DNA of 42,877 bases from Chloroflexota bacterium (GCA_002730795.1 PCAX01000063.1:1-42877), one strand, 5' to 3'; shown: positions 18,065 through 35,982, counted from the first letter of the stretch. Numbers and translations: made by a program. The notes: a model not told the origin generated them from the sequence alone.

Positions 18065-18907
18065 TCATTCTAAAATTTTCTGGTTTATTTGGCTGAGATC
18101 ATGATCTCCAATGGTTCTTTTTAGAGAACCAGAGGTATATTGCTTTATTTCAAGGTCCGCTAGGGTATTGATTATCGTATATTGGGTTGGCATATCTTCC
18201 CATCGGGCAACATTCCATTTAAAGTGACCGTTCCCAGTAAATTCCTCCAAAATTTTTCTGTTTGGATTATACGCCGGTGATATTACGGGGTATGCCACAT
18301 CCGGAGTTCCCCATTGACCTGTACGAGGAATATATTTGTAATGTAAAAGTCCATCGGGTTCAAAATCGCCCGGACCCGTAGGAAAAGGAGTTGTAATTGA
18401 TTTTAAACTGCTTACTTCGAGGTTAAGAAAGTTAAATCCCAACCAACTTGCAGAAATCGCTGCAAAATCGCTACTTATTCTTATTTCAGGAAGTTCACAA
18501 TATATTTTTGAGAAACCTAGTTCCTCGCGGCCAGTGATGATAGGATCCGCCAAATTTTCCCACAGAACAGTTAAAAATGGTCCATGAACCTTGTCTTTTT
18601 TTCCAGAAAATTCGGCATTTAATGTGACGCCTAGTACGTTGTATCCTCTACCTGCTAACCATTGAATTTCTTTCATGTAACTGGCAAAAATGGTTACGAT
18701 TGGATCACCGTAAAGATTGAAACCGGGAGGTAATAGTTTGCGGAGTTGGGCAGCGTTAGAAAGAAACGAAACAGAAACAGTAGTCGTTTTGTGGCTTATT
18801 TTTCCATTAAACTTCACCCCGTCAGGAGATTGCCTAGGGCCATAAGCTGGGCCAAAATGAGTAGGCATTCTATACATACGTTTCGGATCAAAACTGTATG
18901 ACATCAA
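18065..18907 (-). CDS. Acetoacetate decarboxylase family protein
   Basis: GREELGFSKIYCELPEIR resembles the ADC active-site Lys region; TVLWENLADPIITGREE, KYIPRTG. Confidence 0.75.
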   Translation of the reverse strand: MMSYSFDPKRMYRMPTHFGPAYGPRQSPDGVKFNGKISHKTTTVSVSFLSNAAQLRKLLPPGFNLYGDPIVTIFASYMKEIQWLAGRGYNVLGVTLNAEFSGKKDKVHGPFLTVLWENLADPIITGREELGFSKIYCELPEIRISSDFAAISASWLGFNFLNLEVSSLKSITTPFPTGPGDFEPDGLLHYKYIPRTGQWGTPDVAYPVISPAYNPNRKILEEFTGNGHFKWNVARWEDMPTQYTIINTLADLEIKQYTSGSLKRTIGDHDLSQINQKILE

Positions 18908-19746: not shown

Positions 19747-20853
19747 TTAATCCTTTCTTACAGTAGCTTTTTTTATTGTAAATTCTGAAAGCAAATTTAT
19801 GTCAGGTTCAGGGAGTCCATCGGTGAAGGGAGAGACTGTCATGTTTTTGGTTAATTCTATTTTGGGATAACCTAAATCCCGTTCATAAAATCGATCTGAA
19901 GGAAATAAATCCCCAGGGTAAGAAAAATTTGGTAATGTTGCTAATTCAACACAAATGGCCGACCCTACAGCACTTTCTAGCATGCCACCCACCCAAACGG
20001 GAATTCCTGATTTAAAACACATATCATGTATTTTTACCGAATTATATAAACCTCCGACCCTTCCTGGCTTGATGTTTACGTATTCACACGCGCCCATTTC
20101 AATAGCTTGTTCCATCCGTCTTATACTGTTTATACTTTCATCTAGGCAAACAGGAGTTTTTATAATGGCTGACAATTTTGAATGGTCCAGCAAGTCATCG
20201 TATCCAAGAGGTTGTTCTATAAATTCCAAGTTAAATTCGTCAAATTTTTCAAACAAGTCTACATCTCCTAAAGAATACCCAGAATTACAATCAATATGTA
20301 TCCTGATATTTGGAAATGCACTCCGAACTGTTTCCAACATTTCTACATCCCAACCCTTAGATACTTTAAGTTTGACCCTTGAAAACCCGTCGTCAACAGC
20401 CTTTTGTATGTTTCCTAAAAGCATATCGTAATCATCTTGAATGCCAAAGTCGGCTCCAGCTTCAACGTTATCGGTAACGCCACCCAGCATAATATGTAAT
20501 GGTATTCCAGTTATTTTACTCTGTAACGTCCACCATAAAATTTCAAGAGCTGCCTTGGCAAACTGGTTCCCTTTAAAAACATTTAATTGATCGTTAAATT
20601 GTTCTATTGTTTCGTACGTTTTTCCGACCATCAACGGAGCAAAATATTCAACAATATTTAAGAAAACTGAGTTTGCCGCTTCTGGGCTGTAAGTCGGCTT
20701 CTCTAACGGAGTAGATTCGGCCCAGGCAATGTGGTCTCCACTGTACCCTTTTACCAAAATCGAGTGAATAAAATAGTCAGTTCCATATGAAGTCCTCCAT
20801 GGGTATTTTAATGGCATAGAAACGTAAAAAATGTCAATTTGGTCTATTTGCAT
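19747..20853 (-). CDS. Mandelate racemase/muconate lactonizing enzyme family protein (MLE/MenC-like)
   Basis: FSRVKLKVSKGWD (KxK), IHIDCNSGYS, EFIEQPLGYDD, CLDESI, INIKPGRVGG, VWVGGMLESAVGSA. Confidence 0.9.
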   Translation of the reverse strand: MQIDQIDIFYVSMPLKYPWRTSYGTDYFIHSILVKGYSGDHIAWAESTPLEKPTYSPEAANSVFLNIVEYFAPLMVGKTYETIEQFNDQLNVFKGNQFAKAALEILWWTLQSKITGIPLHIMLGGVTDNVEAGADFGIQDDYDMLLGNIQKAVDDGFSRVKLKVSKGWDVEMLETVRSAFPNIRIHIDCNSGYSLGDVDLFEKFDEFNLEFIEQPLGYDDLLDHSKLSAIIKTPVCLDESINSIRRMEQAIEMGACEYVNIKPGRVGGLYNSVKIHDMCFKSGIPVWVGGMLESAVGSAICVELATLPNFSYPGDLFPSDRFYERDLGYPKIELTKNMTVSPFTDGLPEPDINLLSEFTIKKATVRKD

Positions 20854-21747: not shown

Positions 21748-22470
21748 TTAATAAGTGGACTTATTACTACGAATTTGATCTTGTTTTTTTGCAGCCTCTC
21801 GAAGGGTATTAGGGGTTGCATTCGGCATACTCGCGGCTTTAATCATCGGGTACTCATACTCTTCCATTTCTTTTGCTAATTTTGGGAGAATCTTAGCGAC
21901 TTCAATTGGTATTTGTATGGCACCATGCTGATCGGATGCTATCAAATCTCCAGGTGAAACTGACATTCCACAAATATCAACGGTTGTATTCAGTGCTTCA
22001 ATGTGTACATATGCATGAGAAACCAAAATTTCTTTAGCTAAAAATTGAAATCCAAGTTTTCTAACTTCGTTTATGTCTCTAACTCCACCATCAGTTACAA
22101 CTCCTACAGCGCCCAAACCTTTCGCAATGTTTCCGTTAACCTCACCCCAAAAAGATCCAATGACGTTGGGGTAATCTCGATCTTTAACAACGATCATGCG
22201 CGGTTCAGGTATTGTCATTATGTATTCCCAATATTCATCTCTGGGAACAGGTTTTTCTCCACGATTTGCTGCAGCTATCTCGACCGTAGCAGCATATCCT
22301 ACACTTGTCCCAAATTCTGGATAGCAACACTTGATTTCTGGTTTAGTAAACCCTTCCGTCCATGGTCTTAATCCTTCAACAAGTTCTAGGCAGTTAGCAA
22401 TCGTTGGCACATCGAGCTTTTTTATTTCCGAAATCTGTTTTTTGTTCAGAAGAATTTTTTTTTCTCTCAA
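21748..22470 (-). CDS. RraA/HMG-aldolase family protein
   Basis: GAVGVVTDGGVRDINEVRKLGFQFLAKEI and SPGDLIASDQHGAIQIP. Confidence 0.88.
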   Translation of the reverse strand: MREKKILLNKKQISEIKKLDVPTIANCLELVEGLRPWTEGFTKPEIKCCYPEFGTSVGYAATVEIAAANRGEKPVPRDEYWEYIMTIPEPRMIVVKDRDYPNVIGSFWGEVNGNIAKGLGAVGVVTDGGVRDINEVRKLGFQFLAKEILVSHAYVHIEALNTTVDICGMSVSPGDLIASDQHGAIQIPIEVAKILPKLAKEMEEYEYPMIKAASMPNATPNTLREAAKKQDQIRSNKSTY

Positions 22471-22766: not shown

Positions 22767-23528
22767 TTGCCAATTAAATATCCAACAATATTTTTATCTC
22801 TATCAATATTGATACTGGCGTTATTTATCGCCTGTGAATCTGAGTCTCCACCAGAAACACCAATTTCTACTGGTCTTTCTTCAGAATCAACAGAACCAAA
22901 AGATCCTTCGCCAGAACCTTTGCCAGAGAAGTACTTAAAAGCCACAATATCTGCATATGTTGAACAAACTGTCACTGCAAGACCTATTCCTGAGCCAGTT
23001 GAAATTATAAAAACAGTTATTGTAGAAAAAATAGTAGAAAAAACTATAGAAAAAACCGTTGTTATAGAAAAATTCGTTGAAGTTCCTGTTTCTGTGATAA
23101 TAACTGCTACACCAACCATTACACCCACGCCCGAAAACACACCTACTCCTACTCCGACCCAATATCCTACTCCTCTTCCAACACCCACAAGCACACCCAC
23201 TCCAACGAGTACTCCTATGCCCACATCTACTCCAACCCCTGAATTCACAATCAATCCAGGTCAAACCCCTAAATCGACCGCTGGAGCTAATTTAACTCTT
23301 GTGAATACAAGAGTCGTTCGATCGGATAACGTTAGCGATTTCTCTGATTTTGATGCGGAAGTTAGATGGGTTGATGGAGGAAATTGGGAGAGTTTACCTA
23401 TAGTGGCAGAGGACGGCAAAATTAATGCCTTCCACGTTTATTCCACAGTAGGAGTCCACCAAATCACTATTAAAGTCACTGTCGGAAATACGACTAAATT
23501 AATACAATTCAATGCCTTAATAAACTAG
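22767..23528 (+). CDS. Predicted lipoprotein with charged VEK/VEV linker, Thr/Pro-rich spacer and C-terminal beta domain
   Basis: Lipobox-like ILALFIAC; KTVIVEKIVEKTIEKTVVIEKFVEVPVSV; TPTPTQYPTPLPTPTSTPTPTSTPMPTSTPTP; TTG start. Confidence 0.75.
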   Translation: MPIKYPTIFLSLSILILALFIACESESPPETPISTGLSSESTEPKDPSPEPLPEKYLKATISAYVEQTVTARPIPEPVEIIKTVIVEKIVEKTIEKTVVIEKFVEVPVSVIITATPTITPTPENTPTPTPTQYPTPLPTPTSTPTPTSTPMPTSTPTPEFTINPGQTPKSTAGANLTLVNTRVVRSDNVSDFSDFDAEVRWVDGGNWESLPIVAEDGKINAFHVYSTVGVHQITIKVTVGNTTKLIQFNALIN

Positions 23529-23557: not shown

Positions 23558-23932
23558 TTAAGCAAGTTTCGACAGTTTGAATCCAAGGTATATTAAAAAT
23601 ATCCCAACAATGTTATTTGCTAAAATATTTAACACAAGCTTGGCCCAATCAAGTTGCGTTATGTAGATAGTATTGTCGAATGCGAAAGTACTAAATGTCG
23701 TGAAAGAACCCATGAATCCAACAAGTATGATTAGGCGCATATTCGAGTTAACTATTCCCTTGTCTTCAGATAACGCCCAAATCAATCCAAATAAGAAGGA
23801 CCCTAACATGTTGGCGACAAAAACGCCTATAGGAAAATTTACAACTGCATATTTATTAAAAAAGATAGAAATACCATAACGGGCTAGGGTTCCCAAAGAT
23901 CCGGCAACCATCAAGTATATAATCTTATCCAT
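23558..23932 (-). CDS. crcB: Fluoride channel CrcB/FluC
   Basis: AGSLGTLARYGIS, FPIGVFVANMLGSFLFGL, GFMGSFTTFSTFAFD. Confidence 0.93.
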   Translation of the reverse strand: MDKIIYLMVAGSLGTLARYGISIFFNKYAVVNFPIGVFVANMLGSFLFGLIWALSEDKGIVNSNMRLIILVGFMGSFTTFSTFAFDNTIYITQLDWAKLVLNILANNIVGIFLIYLGFKLSKLA

Positions 23933-23945
23933 TTAAATTCCTTTT

Positions 23946-24743
23946 CTAGGTTTTTGCGCATCGAGCAAGATAAACCGGCCAAGAAAATGAAAAATCTTTG
24001 CCTGTCTTACAAACGTTAAACTCCGACTTTATTTGTTCAGGTAACAAAAGCCACTCATCCCACATTTTTTTTACTTCATCTGTAGGTGTACCTGATCTTT
24101 TAACCCATTCACGGAACGTCATATCAACAGTAGTAAATCTTTCGTCTTGTACCACAAATCCAGTTTGAGATATTTCTTTTCTCCATTCACTAGGAGACGG
24201 GGCTCGAATGTGAGTGTTATCTCGGCGAAACTCCATTTCCTGGTGCCAATTCCTCATGAAAGGATTTTCACTAGTGGTAGTATCCGATAGAAGAAAAACA
24301 CCATCTGTTTTTAATACTCTATAAACTTCACCTAAAAACAAGTGGACAGAAGAAAAATGATGTGCAGCGGTTCTACAGGAAATTAAGTCCAAACTATTGT
24401 CAATAAACGACATCTGCATTGCGTCCACGTATCCAATCGATATATTGTCAATGGACTTTTTTTCTATGGAATTAGCAGCAGCGTGTAGCATGTTAGAAGT
24501 TATATCCGTCGCTATCATATCATCGCAAAGCTCAGCCAGGGCAAAGGCAGTAAATCCTGGACCTGTACCTATATCTGCTGCTGTTTGAAATTTCGAATCT
24601 TTGGCAAGTTCAATAATCAAATCAAGACTTGAACTTGATGAGTGAGCCACACTTGTAACATAATGTTCTGCTTGGGAATTGAATTGTTGACGAGTTTGTC
24701 TATTCACAACGTGTTTGTAAATTATACTACCGTCATTCAACAT
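23946..24743 (-). CDS. Class I SAM-dependent methyltransferase
   Basis: AADIGTGPGFTAFALAE, DITSNML, MSFIDNSLDLISCRTAAHHFSS, EVYRVLKTDGVFLLSD. Confidence 0.88.
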   Translation of the reverse strand: MLNDGSIIYKHVVNRQTRQQFNSQAEHYVTSVAHSSSSSLDLIIELAKDSKFQTAADIGTGPGFTAFALAELCDDMIATDITSNMLHAAANSIEKKSIDNISIGYVDAMQMSFIDNSLDLISCRTAAHHFSSVHLFLGEVYRVLKTDGVFLLSDTTTSENPFMRNWHQEMEFRRDNTHIRAPSPSEWRKEISQTGFVVQDERFTTVDMTFREWVKRSGTPTDEVKKMWDEWLLLPEQIKSEFNVCKTGKDFSFSWPVYLARCAKT

Positions 24744-25473
24744 CTACTCTAGGAGGAGGATTTAGAACTGGATGGATTGCTAACAGTTTGCCTAGGGATT
24801 TTGACTGATTAAATATTCCGTGTCTAACTCCAATTTCACAAGTGAATATATCTCCAGAATGGAGCTCGATTGAATTTTCTTTATCGTAAACGGCAGTCAG
24901 GTTACCTTCAAGACAGAACATTGATTCTTCATGAGATGGATGAAAATGGTTCGGAGCTATTGAACCTGGTTGAAATGTTAATTCACTGAAATATGTTGAT
25001 TCAGCTCCTAGAAAATTTCCAACCATATCGTATCGTGAAATACCTGGGAAAAACTCATAGCTTTCAGCCCTTCCTCTGAAAAAAACTCCCTGTTTCGGTT
25101 CAGATAAAACAAACTCTGGTTCGTCAATTTCTTGACGATCCGGAATTGGTACTGGATAAGCACATACGAATCTCGCGTCCGAATCACCTATGTTTTTCAA
25201 ACCATGTCCAACTCCTCTTGGAGCCAGAACACAATCACCCGCAGACACTTGAAATTTATGATTGCCCACCCTAAATTCCGCTTCTCCGGAAACAACAAAA
25301 ATAGACTCTTCTGTATTTGGATGGCAGTGGTAAGCGGATGCTACATTAGATTTGACCGTTAAATCTGATACGGTCATCATGGTGGATCCAGTAGATGGGC
25401 CAGTTACGACCAAAATATTAGCTCCTTTAAACGGTTCGATTTGTTGTTGTTTGGATCTTATCGTTATTCCCAT
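24733..25473 (-). CDS. Bicupin protein (two cupin domains)
   Basis: YHCHPNTEESIFVVSGEAEFRVG...GDCVLAPRGVGHGLKN and NHFHPSHEESMFCLEGNLTAVY...GDIFTCEIGVRHGIFN. Confidence 0.9.
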   Translation of the reverse strand: MGITIRSKQQQIEPFKGANILVVTGPSTGSTMMTVSDLTVKSNVASAYHCHPNTEESIFVVSGEAEFRVGNHKFQVSAGDCVLAPRGVGHGLKNIGDSDARFVCAYPVPIPDRQEIDEPEFVLSEPKQGVFFRGRAESYEFFPGISRYDMVGNFLGAESTYFSELTFQPGSIAPNHFHPSHEESMFCLEGNLTAVYDKENSIELHSGDIFTCEIGVRHGIFNQSKSLGKLLAIHPVLNPPPRVDVE

Positions 25474-25540
25474 AATTTTAGTTCCTTCAATTTAATAAAA
25501 TACTACTGCTAAGTTTTTATAGATATGCACAGTTGTTCCA

Positions 25541-26212
25541 CTAATCAGTGGATCCAGCATTCCAGGCATCTTCCCAAAATGTTAGTTCATGTTGGGTACT
25601 TTTGTGAAAAATATCCTTCATTTTTTTACGGGAAATTTCACTAGAAATGTTACCTAGTGAATCGACATATTCCCTTAACCAAATCGTCATTTCTTGATAC
25701 GCAGGATTATTATAACCTAATATCCATCTGGCGTGAAAGGAGGCAGGATTTAAACCGTCAAGACTATAAAATCTTCTCCCAATCTCATCATAGCCCCACT
25801 GACAAGGTAATAATGATACCGCTATATCATTAACGTCCCCTTCATAAGCTGTTCGTACAAGATGGTTTGTATAGTTGATGGTGGCAGCGCTCGGAATGGT
25901 CTCATCTAAATCCAAAATATTAATACCTATATCCGTACAAAACCCTCGATGTAAATCCATTTCAATGTTCAAAGTTTCATCCAATAATTTTGACCATTTA
26001 CCCATTGTAGAAATCCTGTCACTTTTTGCTGTAGCTAAAGCCACTACTCTACAGTAGTCAATCAAAAACAAATAATCTTGTTTCATAAAGTAAGTAAATC
26101 TGTCCAGAGAAAGCGTGCCGTCACCCATAGATTTAATAAACGGATGATGTTCGTGAGCTAATTCCCATACATCCAAACATGATTTTTTTAAATCCTCCGA
26201 AAATGAAACCAT
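25541..26212 (-). CDS. TenA family protein (thiaminase II/TenA-like)
   Basis: HPFIKSMGDGTLSLDRFTYFMKQDYLFLIDY and SLLPCQWGYDEIGRRF resemble the TenA signature including the LLPC cysteine. Confidence 0.9.
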   Translation of the reverse strand: MVSFSEDLKKSCLDVWELAHEHHPFIKSMGDGTLSLDRFTYFMKQDYLFLIDYCRVVALATAKSDRISTMGKWSKLLDETLNIEMDLHRGFCTDIGINILDLDETIPSAATINYTNHLVRTAYEGDVNDIAVSLLPCQWGYDEIGRRFYSLDGLNPASFHARWILGYNNPAYQEMTIWLREYVDSLGNISSEISRKKMKDIFHKSTQHELTFWEDAWNAGSTD

Positions 26213-26214
26213 AC

Positions 26215-26601
26215 TTAATAGTCCCTGATCAAATCTACAGTAATTGATTTTCCATTTTTAACGTTTGAAAGCATGGTTGCATCACCTTCCACTTTACCTA
26301 TTACAGTAACTGGTGATGCTGGTCTAATTTCTCCTTCTTCACTAATCGGAGTCGGTCCCCAAAAAAGGCAAACCGAATTCCCTGGTGGCCAATAAGCAAT
26401 ATCTCCTTTATTGACCGTTTCTACTGAAATATCTGTTGTTTCTCCACAACTGGTAATAGGAAAATACAATTCATCACCCCACGTTTGAATATTCGAATTA
26501 ATTGGTAATAATTTCAACACATGTTGAGCGAGTTCAGTAGAATTCATATCCCCCTCTAAGGTCACTTGGTCTATAGTGAACCTGACTTTCGTTTCACCCA
26601 T
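26215..26601 (-). CDS. Cyclophilin-like fold protein (TM1367/DUF369-type)
   Basis: NKGDIAYWPPGNSVCLFWGPTPIS..EEGEIRPASPVTVIGKVEGD. Confidence 0.75.
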   Translation of the reverse strand: MGETKVRFTIDQVTLEGDMNSTELAQHVLKLLPINSNIQTWGDELYFPITSCGETTDISVETVNKGDIAYWPPGNSVCLFWGPTPISEEGEIRPASPVTVIGKVEGDATMLSNVKNGKSITVDLIRDY

Positions 26602-27348
26602 TTATTCACCCTTCGTCCATTTAGAAAACATTTTTTTTGTTTCATCATTGAAGGGGTAAAATTTCTTAGGCGAAATCTTCTTCCTTTGGGTGTAATCAAT
26701 TATCGCCTTTTCAATTTCGTCATGTTTCAGACAGTCACTGTAAATATCTTCTGCCATTCCTGATGGGAGAACCACGACCCCATCATCATCACCAAGAATT
26801 AAGTCACCCGGCCAAACTAAAACACCTCCACATTGTATTGGTCTGTTAACTTCATAAGGTAGAATATTTGGTTCTCCAACAGTAGGTGTACTTCCCCCAG
26901 CAAATACAGGATAACCGTATTTAATCACTTTGTACCCATCGCGCACTGCCCCATCAGTAACTAATCCTTCGCCTTCTCTTGTCAAAATTCTTGAAAAAAC
27001 TACATCTCCCCCTATACTCGTTCTTTTCAAACCCATTGCATCAGCAACTAAAACACTACCTCTCGAAAGAGTTTCAAGAGCGTCCCATCGAGGAGTTTCA
27101 TTAAAACCTTCACCGTGTTCTCCTTTTGCTATGTAATCCTGTAAGTCTGGTCTAGACGGCAGATATCTTAGTGTTACAGCAGGACCACATAGTCGTCTTC
27201 CATTTTGTAAAGATTTAACTCCTTCCATATATGTTTTGCTATACCCTAGTTTTAAAAGTTGTCCAAGAATTGTGGCATTAGATATGTTTCTAAATTTTTC
27301 GACTAAATCTTGCGATACAAGAGAAAAGGGTTCCATTTTTTTTCCCAT
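26602..27348 (-). CDS. RraA/HMG-aldolase family protein
   Basis: GEGLVTDGAVRDGYKVIKYGYPVFAGG, VWPGDLILGDDDGVVVLP. Confidence 0.9.
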   Translation of the reverse strand: MGKKMEPFSLVSQDLVEKFRNISNATILGQLLKLGYSKTYMEGVKSLQNGRRLCGPAVTLRYLPSRPDLQDYIAKGEHGEGFNETPRWDALETLSRGSVLVADAMGLKRTSIGGDVVFSRILTREGEGLVTDGAVRDGYKVIKYGYPVFAGGSTPTVGEPNILPYEVNRPIQCGGVLVWPGDLILGDDDGVVVLPSGMAEDIYSDCLKHDEIEKAIIDYTQRKKISPKKFYPFNDETKKMFSKWTKGE

Positions 27349-27380
27349 TGGGCAATTGAATAACTGGAGTTGATAAGTAT

Positions 27381-27402
27381 ATTTAAGTATAAGTACTTAA
27401 AT
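27381..27402. promoter_or_regulatory. Candidate operator: perfect 9-bp inverted repeat ATTTAAGTA-TAAG-TACTTAAAT
   Basis: Lies between the divergent rraA-operon start (27348) and the probable mobA start (27436). Confidence 0.5.
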
Positions 27403-27435
27403 GTTAATAGAACAGAGAGAATAAAAAAAATATTC

Positions 27436-28131
27436 ATGGGATTTAATGGCTTATTAACAGGTGTTGTTCTAGCAGGTGGAAAATCTAAAAGACTTGGGAA
27501 AGGGAGGTCCAAGCCTTTAATACAGGTCGGCGGTAAATTACTGTTAGCTAGGGTTGTTGACACACTTAAGCCGATATGCGACGAATTAATTTTAGTAGTC
27601 AAACCAAACCAAGAAGGCGATATACCAGATTTAGGTATAGCACTTGGAACACACGTGATTACAGACACTATGCCATTTTCGGGTCCGTTGGCGGGGTTAC
27701 ATGCTGGTTTATCTGCGTCTGTGACACCTTTGTCATTTGTTGTGGGAGCGGATCATCCGTTTCTTTCAAGAAAATTAATTGAAACGATGATTAATATGTC
27801 GATGTCAACAGGAACAAAACAAACCGCCACCTCAATAGTACCCCGACATGGAGGTTATCTGTATCCATTACACTCTATATACACAAAAATCGGTTGGAGT
27901 GACTTCATTATTGAGAATTTATCTCAGGGTATTTCTTCAATATCGCAAGTTATAAAAAATGCTATAAATAGTGAATATCCCCCGGTTCAACTAATTACGG
28001 ATGAAGAAATGGAATTAATCGATCCAATGTTTATGAGTTTAATGGATATAAATAACCAGGAATCATTAATGAAGTGCCGTAAAATAGCAGACCACAAAAA
28101 ATTGTACGGTCAACCAAGGCGGAACAAGTAA
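27436..28131 (+). CDS. mobA: Molybdenum cofactor guanylyltransferase (MobA-like)
   Basis: GVVLAGGKSKRLGKGRSKPLIQVGGK, SFVVGADHPFLS; start trimmed from 27370 to MGFNGLLTG. Confidence 0.8.
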   Translation: MGFNGLLTGVVLAGGKSKRLGKGRSKPLIQVGGKLLLARVVDTLKPICDELILVVKPNQEGDIPDLGIALGTHVITDTMPFSGPLAGLHAGLSASVTPLSFVVGADHPFLSRKLIETMINMSMSTGTKQTATSIVPRHGGYLYPLHSIYTKIGWSDFIIENLSQGISSISQVIKNAINSEYPPVQLITDEEMELIDPMFMSLMDINNQESLMKCRKIADHKKLYGQPRRNK

Positions 28132-32531: not shown

Positions 32532-33326
32532 TCATATGTAAGATACAGATTTTATTTCGATATTTAAATCTCCATTCATATCATGTACCAATGCGTTAAC
32601 GGAAAAAACTTCCTTGATATTAGTTTCGGTAAGCACTTTTTTAGGGGTTCCATACGCATGCATCTTGCCGTTTTTTATTAGAAAAATTTGATCACAGGTT
32701 TTCGCAGCAAGATTGATATCATGCATGACCATTACGCATCCTGCTGCACGTTTATCGCGTTCCTCCTTTATGAGTGATGTAACTTGTATTTGATATTTTA
32801 TATCCAATCCAGACATTGGTTCATCCATCAGTATATATTCTCCTCCTTGGACAAGAAGTCGGGCTAAAAGTACAAGTTGCCGTTCTCCTCCTGAAATAGA
32901 GTTCAGTTTCCTTTGGGATAGGTCAAAAATCCCAACCCTTTCCAGAACTTCCAAAGTTCTATCGACTTCTTTTTTTCCTTCAATTTCAAATCTTCCCATG
33001 TGCACATATCTCCCCATAAGAACAGTTTCCATAACCGAAAACGGATGCATTTCCGAAAACTGCGACAGGTAGCTTATTATTCTCGCTCGTTTTGACGACG
33101 GAATTTCGAGTATTGATTTACCGTTCAGTTTGATAACACCAGTTTTAGGCTTTACCATTCCAGTTAATGTTCTCATTAAGGTTGTTTTACCACTTCCATT
33201 AGGTCCCAAAATACCAATAATTTGACCCGGAACAATTTGAATATTTATACCTTTTAACACAACGTTTCCACTAAGGACAACTTCAATATTTTTTGCTTGC
33301 AAACAATTTGTTAACAACGGAATCAA
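32532..33326 (-). CDS. ABC ATP-binding protein, iron-siderophore/cobalamin type (FecE/BtuD-like)
   Basis: GPNGSGKTTLMRTL, SISGGERQLVLLARLLVQGGEYILMDEPMSGLD; next to SBP and FecCD permease. Confidence 0.92.
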   Translation of the reverse strand: MIPLLTNCLQAKNIEVVLSGNVVLKGINIQIVPGQIIGILGPNGSGKTTLMRTLTGMVKPKTGVIKLNGKSILEIPSSKRARIISYLSQFSEMHPFSVMETVLMGRYVHMGRFEIEGKKEVDRTLEVLERVGIFDLSQRKLNSISGGERQLVLLARLLVQGGEYILMDEPMSGLDIKYQIQVTSLIKEERDKRAAGCVMVMHDINLAAKTCDQIFLIKNGKMHAYGTPKKVLTETNIKEVFSVNALVHDMNGDLNIEIKSVSYI

Positions 33327-33338
33327 CCTAAAAATTTT

Positions 33339-34472
33339 TTAATTTTGATGATTTATAAAATCTTCAAATATGTAATCGTTGAATTGTTCGGGATAGAGTA
33401 ATTGTGCAAGTTCTTCTATACCCCGCACATTCCAGTGTGAAAGAGTTGTATTGTATTGCGGAGTAACGTAATAAATCCGTTTATTGATGATTGCTGGGAC
33501 CTCTGCAAGAACTGGATCCGATAAAAGCTGTTTTTTGAATTCTATGGCACTCGCTTCAGGTTGTGGTAGTAAAACAGCATCTGGATTGATAGCGGCGATC
33601 GATTCTATGCTCACTTCTTGATGTCCGCTTATACCGGAATCGGCCGCAGCATTAATAGCAGAAACTTGTTCAATAATCCCACCTTCGGTCGACCCAGAGC
33701 CTGCCGCAAAAATAGTTGACCATTTAGTTATTGATAAAACTCTAAGTTTTTCTTCGACAGGAATATTTTTCACAACCACTTTAACTCTTTTCTCAATTTC
33801 TTCAACCAACGACAACGCTTCGTACTCTTGACCTAATGCATAACCCATAAGGAGAATATTCGGTATGTTACCCATAGTTGAATCATCTAATTCAGCTCTT
33901 AAAACAGGAATTCCCACATCCTTCAGAATTGCAACAGTTTCTGGATCGGTAAATTTAGACGCTATGACAATATCTGGGTCTAAAGCCACAACTTCTTCTG
34001 GATCATACCCAATTTGTTTATGTGAGGAAGAAATTTCAACGATGTTCGATGTCGAAGGATCAGTGTAGAAATCATAAACGGCACTAATTCTATTGAAATC
34101 CATAATTGCTGCAATTATCTCTGCATGTCCAAGAGACAACGGGTGCACTTTTTCAGGTACTGAGTCAATAGTTATTTTACCCGCAGAAGATTGTATTTCT
34201 CTAGGCCATCCAAAGTTGTTAGCATCTATAATTCCATCGACAGTACTAAATTTTTCAAGGCCTACTAAATGTTCAATTTTATTAATATTTGAACTGTTAT
34301 AATTTTTTAACTTATGACTTTCTGGGTGTCCTGTATTACCGTCATTTCCGGTTGAAGTTTCAACCACCGATTGGCATGAGGAAATGGTAAAAGGAAAAAT
34401 TACACTAATCAAAATCAGTGTTCCCATTGAAAAGATTTTCCAAAGAATTATCAGTTTACTCAGAATAACCAA
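33339..34472 (-). CDS. ABC substrate-binding lipoprotein, iron-siderophore/cobalamin type
   Basis: N-terminal hydrophobic segment with ISSC lipobox; GYDPEEVVALDPDIVIASKFTDPETVAILKDVGIPVLRAE; SIESIAAINPDAVLLPQPEA. Confidence 0.88.
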   Translation of the reverse strand: MVILSKLIILWKIFSMGTLILISVIFPFTISSCQSVVETSTGNDGNTGHPESHKLKNYNSSNINKIEHLVGLEKFSTVDGIIDANNFGWPREIQSSAGKITIDSVPEKVHPLSLGHAEIIAAIMDFNRISAVYDFYTDPSTSNIVEISSSHKQIGYDPEEVVALDPDIVIASKFTDPETVAILKDVGIPVLRAELDDSTMGNIPNILLMGYALGQEYEALSLVEEIEKRVKVVVKNIPVEEKLRVLSITKWSTIFAAGSGSTEGGIIEQVSAINAAADSGISGHQEVSIESIAAINPDAVLLPQPEASAIEFKKQLLSDPVLAEVPAIINKRIYYVTPQYNTTLSHWNVRGIEELAQLLYPEQFNDYIFEDFINHQN

Positions 34473-34484
34473 ACGTCTACCTTT

Positions 34485-35555
34485 TTAAAGTGAAAAAATT
34501 TGTTGTCGCCGTTTAATAAGTAAAAAAATAAAAAACGGTGCTCCAGCGAGAGCTGTTACCATACCCACTCGCAGCTCAGCTGGTGAAACCAATGTCCGTG
34601 CCAAAGTATCCGCAATCAACATAAATATTGACCCTGTCAAAAATGCGAGTGGCAATAAAACCCTATGATCGGGACCCAATATAATCCTAACCACGTGAGG
34701 AACCACCAATCCTACAAAGGCAATAATACCCGTGTATGCAACAGCAACACTAGTAACAATAGAAGCCACAATTAATAAAAAATTTCTGACTAAACCTACT
34801 CTTATCCCTAATGCTTGGGCTTGGTCTTCACCCACTAATATAAGGTTTAAATCTCTTGCAAAAAAAATCGAAACAATAACTGGAACAATAATAAGCGGCC
34901 CCACCAATTTAACTGTGTCCCAACGAGTGGAATCAAATCCACCAGCAAGCCAAAACATCATTTGCCGTTGGGCATCTATATCACCCGAAAAAAGAACTAC
35001 AGCAGAAATAATAGAGTTAAGAAAAGCTCCAATTGCTATCCCTGCCAGAAGAAGCGTTGGGACAGAAACACCACCTCCAGAAGAAGCAATCAAAAAAACG
35101 AGTGTCATTGCCACTAAAGACCCCACAAAAGCAAATCCTGGAATAGCCCAAATCGAATACAGTGCAGCCCCGGTTGATATGGCAATTACCGCACCAACTG
35201 CGCCACCTGCTGAAACTCCAATTATTCCAGGGTCAGCCATGTTGTTCCGAAAAACACCCTGCATTATTACTCCTGCTGATGAAAGTCCTCCACCAACAAG
35301 TAATGCCATTGATATTCTAGGTATACGGATATTTTCAATTATTGCCCGATGGGTGTTTGGAACCTCTATAGTATTAATGCCCGTAAGACCAATGAAAAAT
35401 CCAACTGTTGACCTTATGGAGACATCGTAAGGACCCAATCCTGTAGCTACGATCACGGAAAATATTCCGATAATTCCAAGAATTACTGTCCCACCCACAA
35501 TCCTGATGGGAATCGAAAAACTATTTATTGGTCTGTGTACTGTAATGCGCAGCAC
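34485..35555 (-). CDS. FecCD-family ABC permease
   Basis: RIPRISMALLVGGGLSSAGVIMQGVFRNNMADPGIIGVSAGGAVGAV, LLAGIAIGAFLNSIISAVV, GIIAFVGLVVPHVVRIILGPDHR. Confidence 0.95.
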   Translation of the reverse strand: MLRITVHRPINSFSIPIRIVGGTVILGIIGIFSVIVATGLGPYDVSIRSTVGFFIGLTGINTIEVPNTHRAIIENIRIPRISMALLVGGGLSSAGVIMQGVFRNNMADPGIIGVSAGGAVGAVIAISTGAALYSIWAIPGFAFVGSLVAMTLVFLIASSGGGVSVPTLLLAGIAIGAFLNSIISAVVLFSGDIDAQRQMMFWLAGGFDSTRWDTVKLVGPLIIVPVIVSIFFARDLNLILVGEDQAQALGIRVGLVRNFLLIVASIVTSVAVAYTGIIAFVGLVVPHVVRIILGPDHRVLLPLAFLTGSIFMLIADTLARTLVSPAELRVGMVTALAGAPFFIFLLIKRRQQIFSL

Positions 35556-35832
35556 TATCCAATCCTCTCACGATCAGAAATACAATGAAAAGCATAGCTT
35601 CACCGAATAACTCAATCGCTGCCATGTCGTCATATTTTTGCTTTGAAAGGTTTCCTGACTTACGGATACTCGAAACATTTTCAAGTTCGTTAAATCCACT
35701 CAGAAAATCATCCTGGTAGTGAATGAAACGATTAAACCCGTTCACAGTGGCGCTACCGCAGCGGCTTCTCACCGCTTTCCCCTTTTTATCTGAGCCTACT
35801 AAAATGGACACACAGATAGCCAAAACACTCAA
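35521..35832 (-). CDS. Hypothetical small ORF upstream of and overlapping the FecCD permease start
   Basis: 103-aa ORF same strand; one hydrophobic stretch AIELFGEAMLFIVFLIV; no recognised family. Confidence 0.3.
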   Translation of the reverse strand: MSVLAICVSILVGSDKKGKAVRSRCGSATVNGFNRFIHYQDDFLSGFNELENVSSIRKSGNLSKQKYDDMAAIELFGEAMLFIVFLIVRGLDSAAHYSTQTNK

Positions 35833-35982
35833 GTTCAGGACGATGCTAACCCAATATAAATAATAGTCAATAATTAATCGGGGATAAAATCAAAAGAACA
35901 AAATAAAAATGAACACATTAGAGTAAAAATGTTAAAATAAAAATTGTGGAACAATTATCAACTGATAGTCAGGAATAATTAA

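Follow-up and report, generated by a model that had tools for sequence, protein, structure and literature searches.

A predicted thiamine-salvage role for a Cys-type TenA in a conserved gene neighbourhood of a SAR202 family

Introduction

A contig of 42,877 nucleotides from a Chloroflexota metagenome assembled genome (MAG) (GCA_002730795.1, PCAX01000063.1:1-42877; hereafter the window) carries a compact cluster of six genes at positions 23558-27348. In order of transcription they encode an RraA-like protein, a cyclophilin-like protein of the DUF369 family (Cyc), a TenA protein, a bicupin, a methyltransferase (MT), and a CrcB protein. The initial annotation of this DNA saw in them a candidate undescribed operon, perhaps for degrading a heteroaromatic or keto-acid compound, or a fluorinated one, TenA being the C-N hydrolase. 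Do these genes form a single pathway, and what is the function of TenA among them? Our analysis points to a family-level neighbourhood of SAR202 bacteria around a Cys-type TenA that would work in the salvage of thiamine (vitamin B1), a reading to which we assign a probability of roughly 0.8. It replaces the supposed degradation pathway by a testable account. A salvage role was already expected for SAR202, and what is added here is the co-loss at the level of genes and the locus itself.

The window belongs to a MAG of 1.49 Mb that is 72% complete. The neighbourhood also occurs in Candidatus Lucifugimonas marina JH1073, a bacterium assigned by NCBI to the SAR202 cluster of the Dehalococcoidia. 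Hence, the window MAG is a member of the SAR202 family that includes this bacterium. We searched 76 genomes of the family, extracted 60 neighbourhoods, and mapped the genes of the window onto them.

Results and discussion

The TenA of the locus has a complete thiaminase II active site

The TenA of the window scores 148.9 bits against the thiaminase II profile TIGR04306, above its curated cut-off of 130, which the proteins of two relatives (L063 and L089) also exceed. Its best matches in the PDB are solved TenA/thiaminase II structures. The cysteine of the LLPC motif, correctly noticed in the initial annotation, is residue 137. Together with D46, Y114, Y141, Y167, and E209 it is conserved in 39 of 39 sequences of this type, and the window residues C137, D46, Y114, Y167, and E209 are the equivalents of Cys135, Asp44, Tyr112, Tyr163, and Glu205 in Bacillus subtilis. 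Under the published typing rule, a TenA with the cysteine is a TenA_C, and one that lacks it and has a conserved glutamate is a TenA_E (PMC5635689). The protein shares the fold family and all catalytic residues with TenA_C/thiaminase II (B. subtilis TenA, PDB 1tyh; also 2rd3 and 3ibx). The proposal of a new C-N hydrolase is not supported in view of this complete active site, of the profile score, and of the association with thiE and thiD described below.

TenA is kept and lost together with thiamine genes

SAR202 bacteria have been described as pyrimidine auxotrophs following the loss of thiC, many of them having thiG and thiE (PMC12236431). We found thiC in none of the 76 genomes, with a control search that was positive in 13 of 14 genomes. 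SAR202 of this family therefore cannot make the pyrimidine of B1, and have up to two types of TenA for its salvage. The distribution of TenA_C follows that of ThiE-family genes: 39 genomes have both, none has TenA_C only, 21 have ThiE only, and 16 have neither (p=1.2e-6). For ThiD above its cut-off the corresponding numbers are 34, 5, 15, and 22 (p=3e-5), both Fisher p-values being indicative only, as the genomes are related and their independence is overstated. TenA_C was lost with ThiE or ThiD at least twice separately. In genus g8, six genomes have TenA_C and ThiE, 13 have neither, and none has just one of them (the ThiE of G044, which has two stops, was scored absent); in genus g6, three have TenA_C and ThiD, five have neither, and again none has one alone. 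Cyc, RraA, bicupin, and CrcB persist in a good part of the genomes devoid of TenA, and these neighbours are less tied to thiE and thiD than TenA is.

In view of the intact active site, the family-wide absence of thiC, and the shared retention or loss of TenA with thiE and, for the most part, thiD, we read the TenA of the window as a salvage enzyme, most likely converting amino-HMP (AmMP) to hydroxymethylpyrimidine (HMP). Judging from established enzymology, the cell would take up or make degraded B1 pyrimidine, TenA_C would hydrolyse AmMP to HMP, ThiD would convert the latter to HMP pyrophosphate, and ThiE would join this product to the thiazole derived from ThiG. TenA_C and TenA_E were reported in SAR202, where the use of AmMP and of N-formyl-AmMP (FAMP) is expected (PMC10470507).

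Many genomes of the family encode a second TenA, about 27% identical to that of the locus, with a threonine at the position of the cysteine followed by a glutamate. By the typing rule it is TenA_E-like. At one such locus (L120) its gene directly precedes ThiD (TIGR00097, 326 bits), and a thiamine pyrophosphate (TPP) riboswitch lies upstream of an ATP-binding cassette (ABC) transporter whose binding protein is of the NMT1/THI5 type. The TenA of this locus (L120, L121) and that of the window both belong to the TenA superfamily and would both serve pyrimidine salvage, but the former lacks the active-site cysteine and is linked to ThiD and ABC genes behind a TPP riboswitch. The TenA_E type, with ThiD and the riboswitch-controlled transporter, would handle the formylated pyrimidine. 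This locus has been lost from many genomes that also lack TenA_C.

The riboswitch locus of L. marina (L274:7081-15499) illustrates such a loss. It keeps the TPP riboswitch, the ABC genes, the SMP30-like (lactonase-like) genes, the HAD gene, and an ornithine-cyclodeaminase-like gene, and is otherwise syntenic with L120:3973-11946, but the TenA_E-ThiD pair between the HAD and ornithine-cyclodeaminase-like genes is cleanly gone. Some lineages have lost TenA along with ThiD and ThiE, including the cultured L. marina, in which none of the three was found. The salvage account predicts which SAR202 could subsist on breakdown products of B1 and which would require whole thiamine, the latter being the prediction for L. 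marina given the clean absence of TenA_E-ThiD.

Several observations weigh against thiamine salvage, in addition to the relatedness of the genomes that inflates the association. A TPP riboswitch was found neither at the TenA_C locus of the window nor at that of the seven relatives scanned. Such riboswitches are common in TenA_C operons, but they do not define the enzyme. The genomic setting also differs from that of known thiaminase II, the TenA of the window adjoining DUF369, RraA, and bicupin genes and no thiamine genes. The initial annotation had opposed its degradation route to a thiamine-salvage TenA regulated by a TPP riboswitch, and half of this holds: the enzyme is of the salvage type, but the riboswitch is at the other locus, that of TenA_E, ThiD, and the ABC transporter. 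ThiD is absent from 5 of the 39 genomes with TenA_C, and one genome of the window's genus (G023) has ThiD without TenA_C. In the window genome, thiG (PF05690, 1.4e-106) is directly followed by a ThiE/TenI-family gene (PF02581), which scores 99.7 against a TIGR00693 cut-off of 145.1 and could be the tautomerase paralogue TenI. The search of the genome set did not reveal ThiD in the window MAG or in its congener G024 (74% complete). Since both genomes are about three quarters complete, we regard this as a caveat that does not contradict the reading. Should the lineage of the window really lack ThiD, its TenA would need another explanation. Finally, thiamine salvage leaves the adjacency of DUF369 and TenA unexplained.

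The gene neighbourhood recurs widely but does not form an obligate unit

Parts of the gene arrangement recur in about 50 relatives, and therefore represent more than chance. Among the 76 genomes, Cyc is found in 56 and TenA in 48. We counted genes as adjacent when they were on the same strand and at most 150 nt apart, among the loci holding both. By this measure Cyc and TenA are adjacent in 36 of 37 loci of the family, RraA and Cyc in 26 of 33, and TenA and bicupin in 14 of 25, with lower values for bicupin and CrcB (6/27), MT and bicupin (1/12), and MT and CrcB (1/16). The MT gene is inverted or absent at most loci, and has the opposite orientation in several relatives. Besides the window, just three loci, all of another genus (g8), have the complete order of six genes, and in these loci additional genes intervene. 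A genome of the window's own genus (G024) has Cyc-TenA-bicupin-CrcB without RraA and MT at the locus. Genera g4, g5, and g10 have no RraA at the locus and keep Cyc, mostly with TenA; in g2 and in many g8 genomes, RraA-Cyc remains and TenA is missing. As the members separate in this way across genera, the six genes are not an obligate set, even if the neighbourhood is widespread in the family. The initial annotation was right to expect partial conservation, which holds for Cyc-TenA, RraA-Cyc, and, to a lesser degree, TenA-bicupin, and does not extend to the gene set as a unit.

Could the arrangement result from inherited synteny only, with no functional link among the genes of the block and TenA still a salvage enzyme? 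The flanking genes (an ABC ATPase, a permease of 1183 aa, and the divergent MobA) are functionally unrelated and as widespread as the core genes, and the positions of MT and CrcB drift. However, Cyc-TenA recurs in several SAR202 families with wholly different flanks, which the simple inheritance of a block would not readily explain. In the same order but outside the family, Cyc is directly followed by TenA in 6 of the 7 genomes with a strong match to Cyc, with different flanks. The pair is also present in a few other Chloroflexota MAGs and in one labelled Rhodothermales (L178, L185, L189, L190); outside these groups, DUF369 is mostly found without a nearby TenA. Overall, we consider synteny alone a possible but rather unlikely explanation.

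Some loci show further rearrangements. DUF3179 proteins separate MobA from RraA and TenA from bicupin (L066:11526-12800 and L066:7883-9436) in several genera of the family with larger genomes. A single-contig genome of an uncultured Dehalococcoidia (G008, OY282385.1; L062:8398-15997) has a tandem array of Cyc-TenA, about eightfold, whose repeat pieces are 82-97% identical. Of its TenA copies, two reach full length and have no internal stop, another of full length has a stop, and the rest are truncated. A contig labelled Planctomycetaceae NP69 (PBTE01000010.1, L236:6300-7000), with a SAR202-like gene order despite this label, has a broken TenA remnant with missing segments and some N between DUF369 and an alcohol-dehydrogenase-like gene, the usual place of TenA. 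Here TenA is decaying in place.

TenA is paired most constantly with DUF369

No other gene accompanies TenA as constantly as DUF369, yet DUF369 is also kept in many genomes that lack TenA, and for this reason it is probably a separate protein sharing the TenA transcript. The protein of the window matches PF04126 and has the atypical cyclophilin fold of this family. Its structure model (pLDDT 93) best matches TM1367 (1zx8, TM-score 0.90), and the known members (PDB 1zx8, 2ka0, 2nnz) share with it the conserved core, with 32-36% identity in structural alignments and TM-scores of 0.81-0.91. DUF369 has been described as a family of unknown function (PMC2954229), and in the literature searched we found no link between DUF369/TM1367 and TenA, nor a paper joining TenA and thiaminase with a cyclophilin-like protein. 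The steady pairing with TenA is thus a concrete lead on a family with a structure since 2005 and no function.

One might suppose that DUF369 specifically assists TenA in salvaging the B1 pyrimidine, say as the missing FAMP deformylase or as a pyrimidine-binding protein, the two genes forming a module. The near-constant adjacency in the family would fit, as would the pair's presence without the other genes in additional SAR202 families and in a small number of other MAGs, its joint amplification in G008, the invariance of C78, T84, S96, and tryptophan residues in relatives, and the lack of a clear YlmB in the marine taxa surveyed (PMC10470507). Yet Cyc is kept without TenA, ThiD, and ThiE, with seven Cyc-positive genomes lacking ThiD in g8. 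Moreover, Cyc is matched in 44 genomes that share the class but not the order, a single one of which has a TenA match, itself weak, and the TenA_E-type enzyme of SAR202 could already serve FAMP. We know of no catalytic chemistry for the DUF369 fold. These elements make the module improbable. Slightly less probable still is the specific proposal that DUF369 is a missing salvage component (deformylase, carrier or regulator for FAMP/AmMP) acting with TenA_C in SAR202; if true, PF04126 would gain its first function and the deep ocean a substitute for YlmB. An obligate partnership with TenA is also weakened by the wide occurrence of DUF369 elsewhere, beside catabolic-looking genes, and by the genomes with Cyc and no TenA.

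After TM1367 and AF2241, the structure search with DUF369 matched parts of the Pictet-Spenglerases KslB (9nst) and McbB (3x27), with E-values of 7e-6 to 3e-4, a likeness that possibly hints at its ligand chemistry. True cyclophilins were also matched, below TM1367/AF2241, and there was no significant match to an amide hydrolase. By eye, among six loci of other genomes (L156, L199, L203, L205, L207, L213), DUF369 lies amid FAD-dependent oxidoreductase-, CoA-transferase-, and thiamine diphosphate enzyme-like genes at some and beside an FGGY-kinase-like gene at others. It seems to be a frequent companion of catabolic genes.

RraA, bicupin, methyltransferase, and CrcB are separable neighbours

Nothing in our data beyond position ties RraA, bicupin, and MT together, and with CrcB they are separable neighbours. 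RraA scores 200.4 bits against NF006093, slightly below the cut-off of 208. Its Arg-Asp pair (R136-D137) is conserved in 34 of 34 sequences and is equivalent to Arg-123/Asp-124 of the HMG-CHA aldolase, for which the roles of the residues have been described (PMC5065237). Class II pyruvate aldolases of the HMG/CHA type have, besides this pair, a second metal ligand that is acidic; here the position +3 from the pair is Lys, Ala or Arg, and never acidic. The PF03737 fold and this pair are common to the RraA-like/HMG-CHA aldolase family (PDB 3noj, 5x15). The 3noj aldolase is matched with only 42.5 bits, and 5x15, whose deposited name is "putative transferase", with 133 bits. The protein is possibly a class II aldolase/decarboxylase. 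The literature searched contained no paper joining SAR202 with RraA. In the bicupin, the metal site is intact in the C-terminal cupin only (H176, H178, E182, H218), whose ligands are kept by at least 34 of the 35 relatives, and the N-terminal site is degenerate. The MT is below all curated NCBIfam cut-offs. CrcB passes that of TIGR00494 marginally (80.8 vs 80.45 bits) and has no fixed partner gene across loci, in agreement with the earlier suspicion that its presence is fortuitous. The idea of fluoride or a fluorinated substrate is not supported, given the lack of Rfam matches near CrcB and of ties between CrcB and the other genes, and that of a heteroaromatic substrate found no support either.

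The undescribed six-gene catabolic route, despite the tight same-strand spacing in the window, the partly conserved gene set, and the conserved catalytic cupin site and RraA Arg-Asp pair, is highly improbable and already largely refuted by the separability of its members (RraA, MT or TenA being missing from the locus in G024, g4, g5, g10, g2, and many g8 genomes), by a TenA that tracks thiamine genes instead, by an MT inverted or absent at most loci, and by a CrcB without a fixed partner.

Layout of the locus and other features of the window

The six minus-strand open reading frames (ORFs) were confirmed, and the family names given initially agree with Pfam and NCBIfam (Table 1). The reported near-zero spacing is correct for RraA/Cyc (0 nt), Cyc/TenA (2 nt), and bicupin/MT (overlap of 11 nt), but not for TenA/bicupin (67 nt); MT and CrcB are 13 nt apart. 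Within the cluster, we found no intergenic intrinsic terminators (hairpins), and promoter-like matches did not exceed the level of shuffled sequences.

Table 1. Genes of the cluster and its conserved divergent flank in the window.
Feature	Position	Strand	Evidence and remarks
CrcB/Fluc-type fluoride exporter	23558-23932	-	PF02537 6.4e-24; loose neighbour
S-adenosylmethionine-dependent class I methyltransferase (MT), BioC/UbiE-like	23946-24743	-	PF08241 1.1e-17; loose neighbour
Bicupin	24733-25473	-	PF07883 4.2e-31, two stretches
TenA, Cys type (TenA_C), predicted aminopyrimidine aminohydrolase	25541-26212	-	PF03070 2.4e-42
DUF369 cyclophilin-like protein (Cyc), TM1367-like	26215-26601	-	PF04126 7.4e-37
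RraA-like protein, PRK08245-like	26602-27348	-	PF03737 2.8e-29
MobA-like nucleotidyltransferase, divergent; conserved flank	27370-28131	+	PF12804 1.6e-28; in 41 loci

The window has another, divergent RraA-like gene at 21748-22470, which shares 21% identity with that of the cluster. Nearby are an acetoacetate-decarboxylase-family gene (18065-18907) and an enolase-superfamily gene (19747-20853) that passes the menC_lowGC_arch cut-off. Beside the CrcB end of the cluster, the plus strand has a TP-repeat-rich lipoprotein-like ORF with no Pfam match (22767-23528). Further away, a cobalamin riboswitch on the minus strand (RF00174, 54.3 bits, 35628-35839) lies upstream of the genes of an ABC importer, namely a permease-like gene (34485-35555), a Peripla_BP_2 gene (33339-34472), and an ATPase gene (32532-33326), which suggests uptake of the B12 type.

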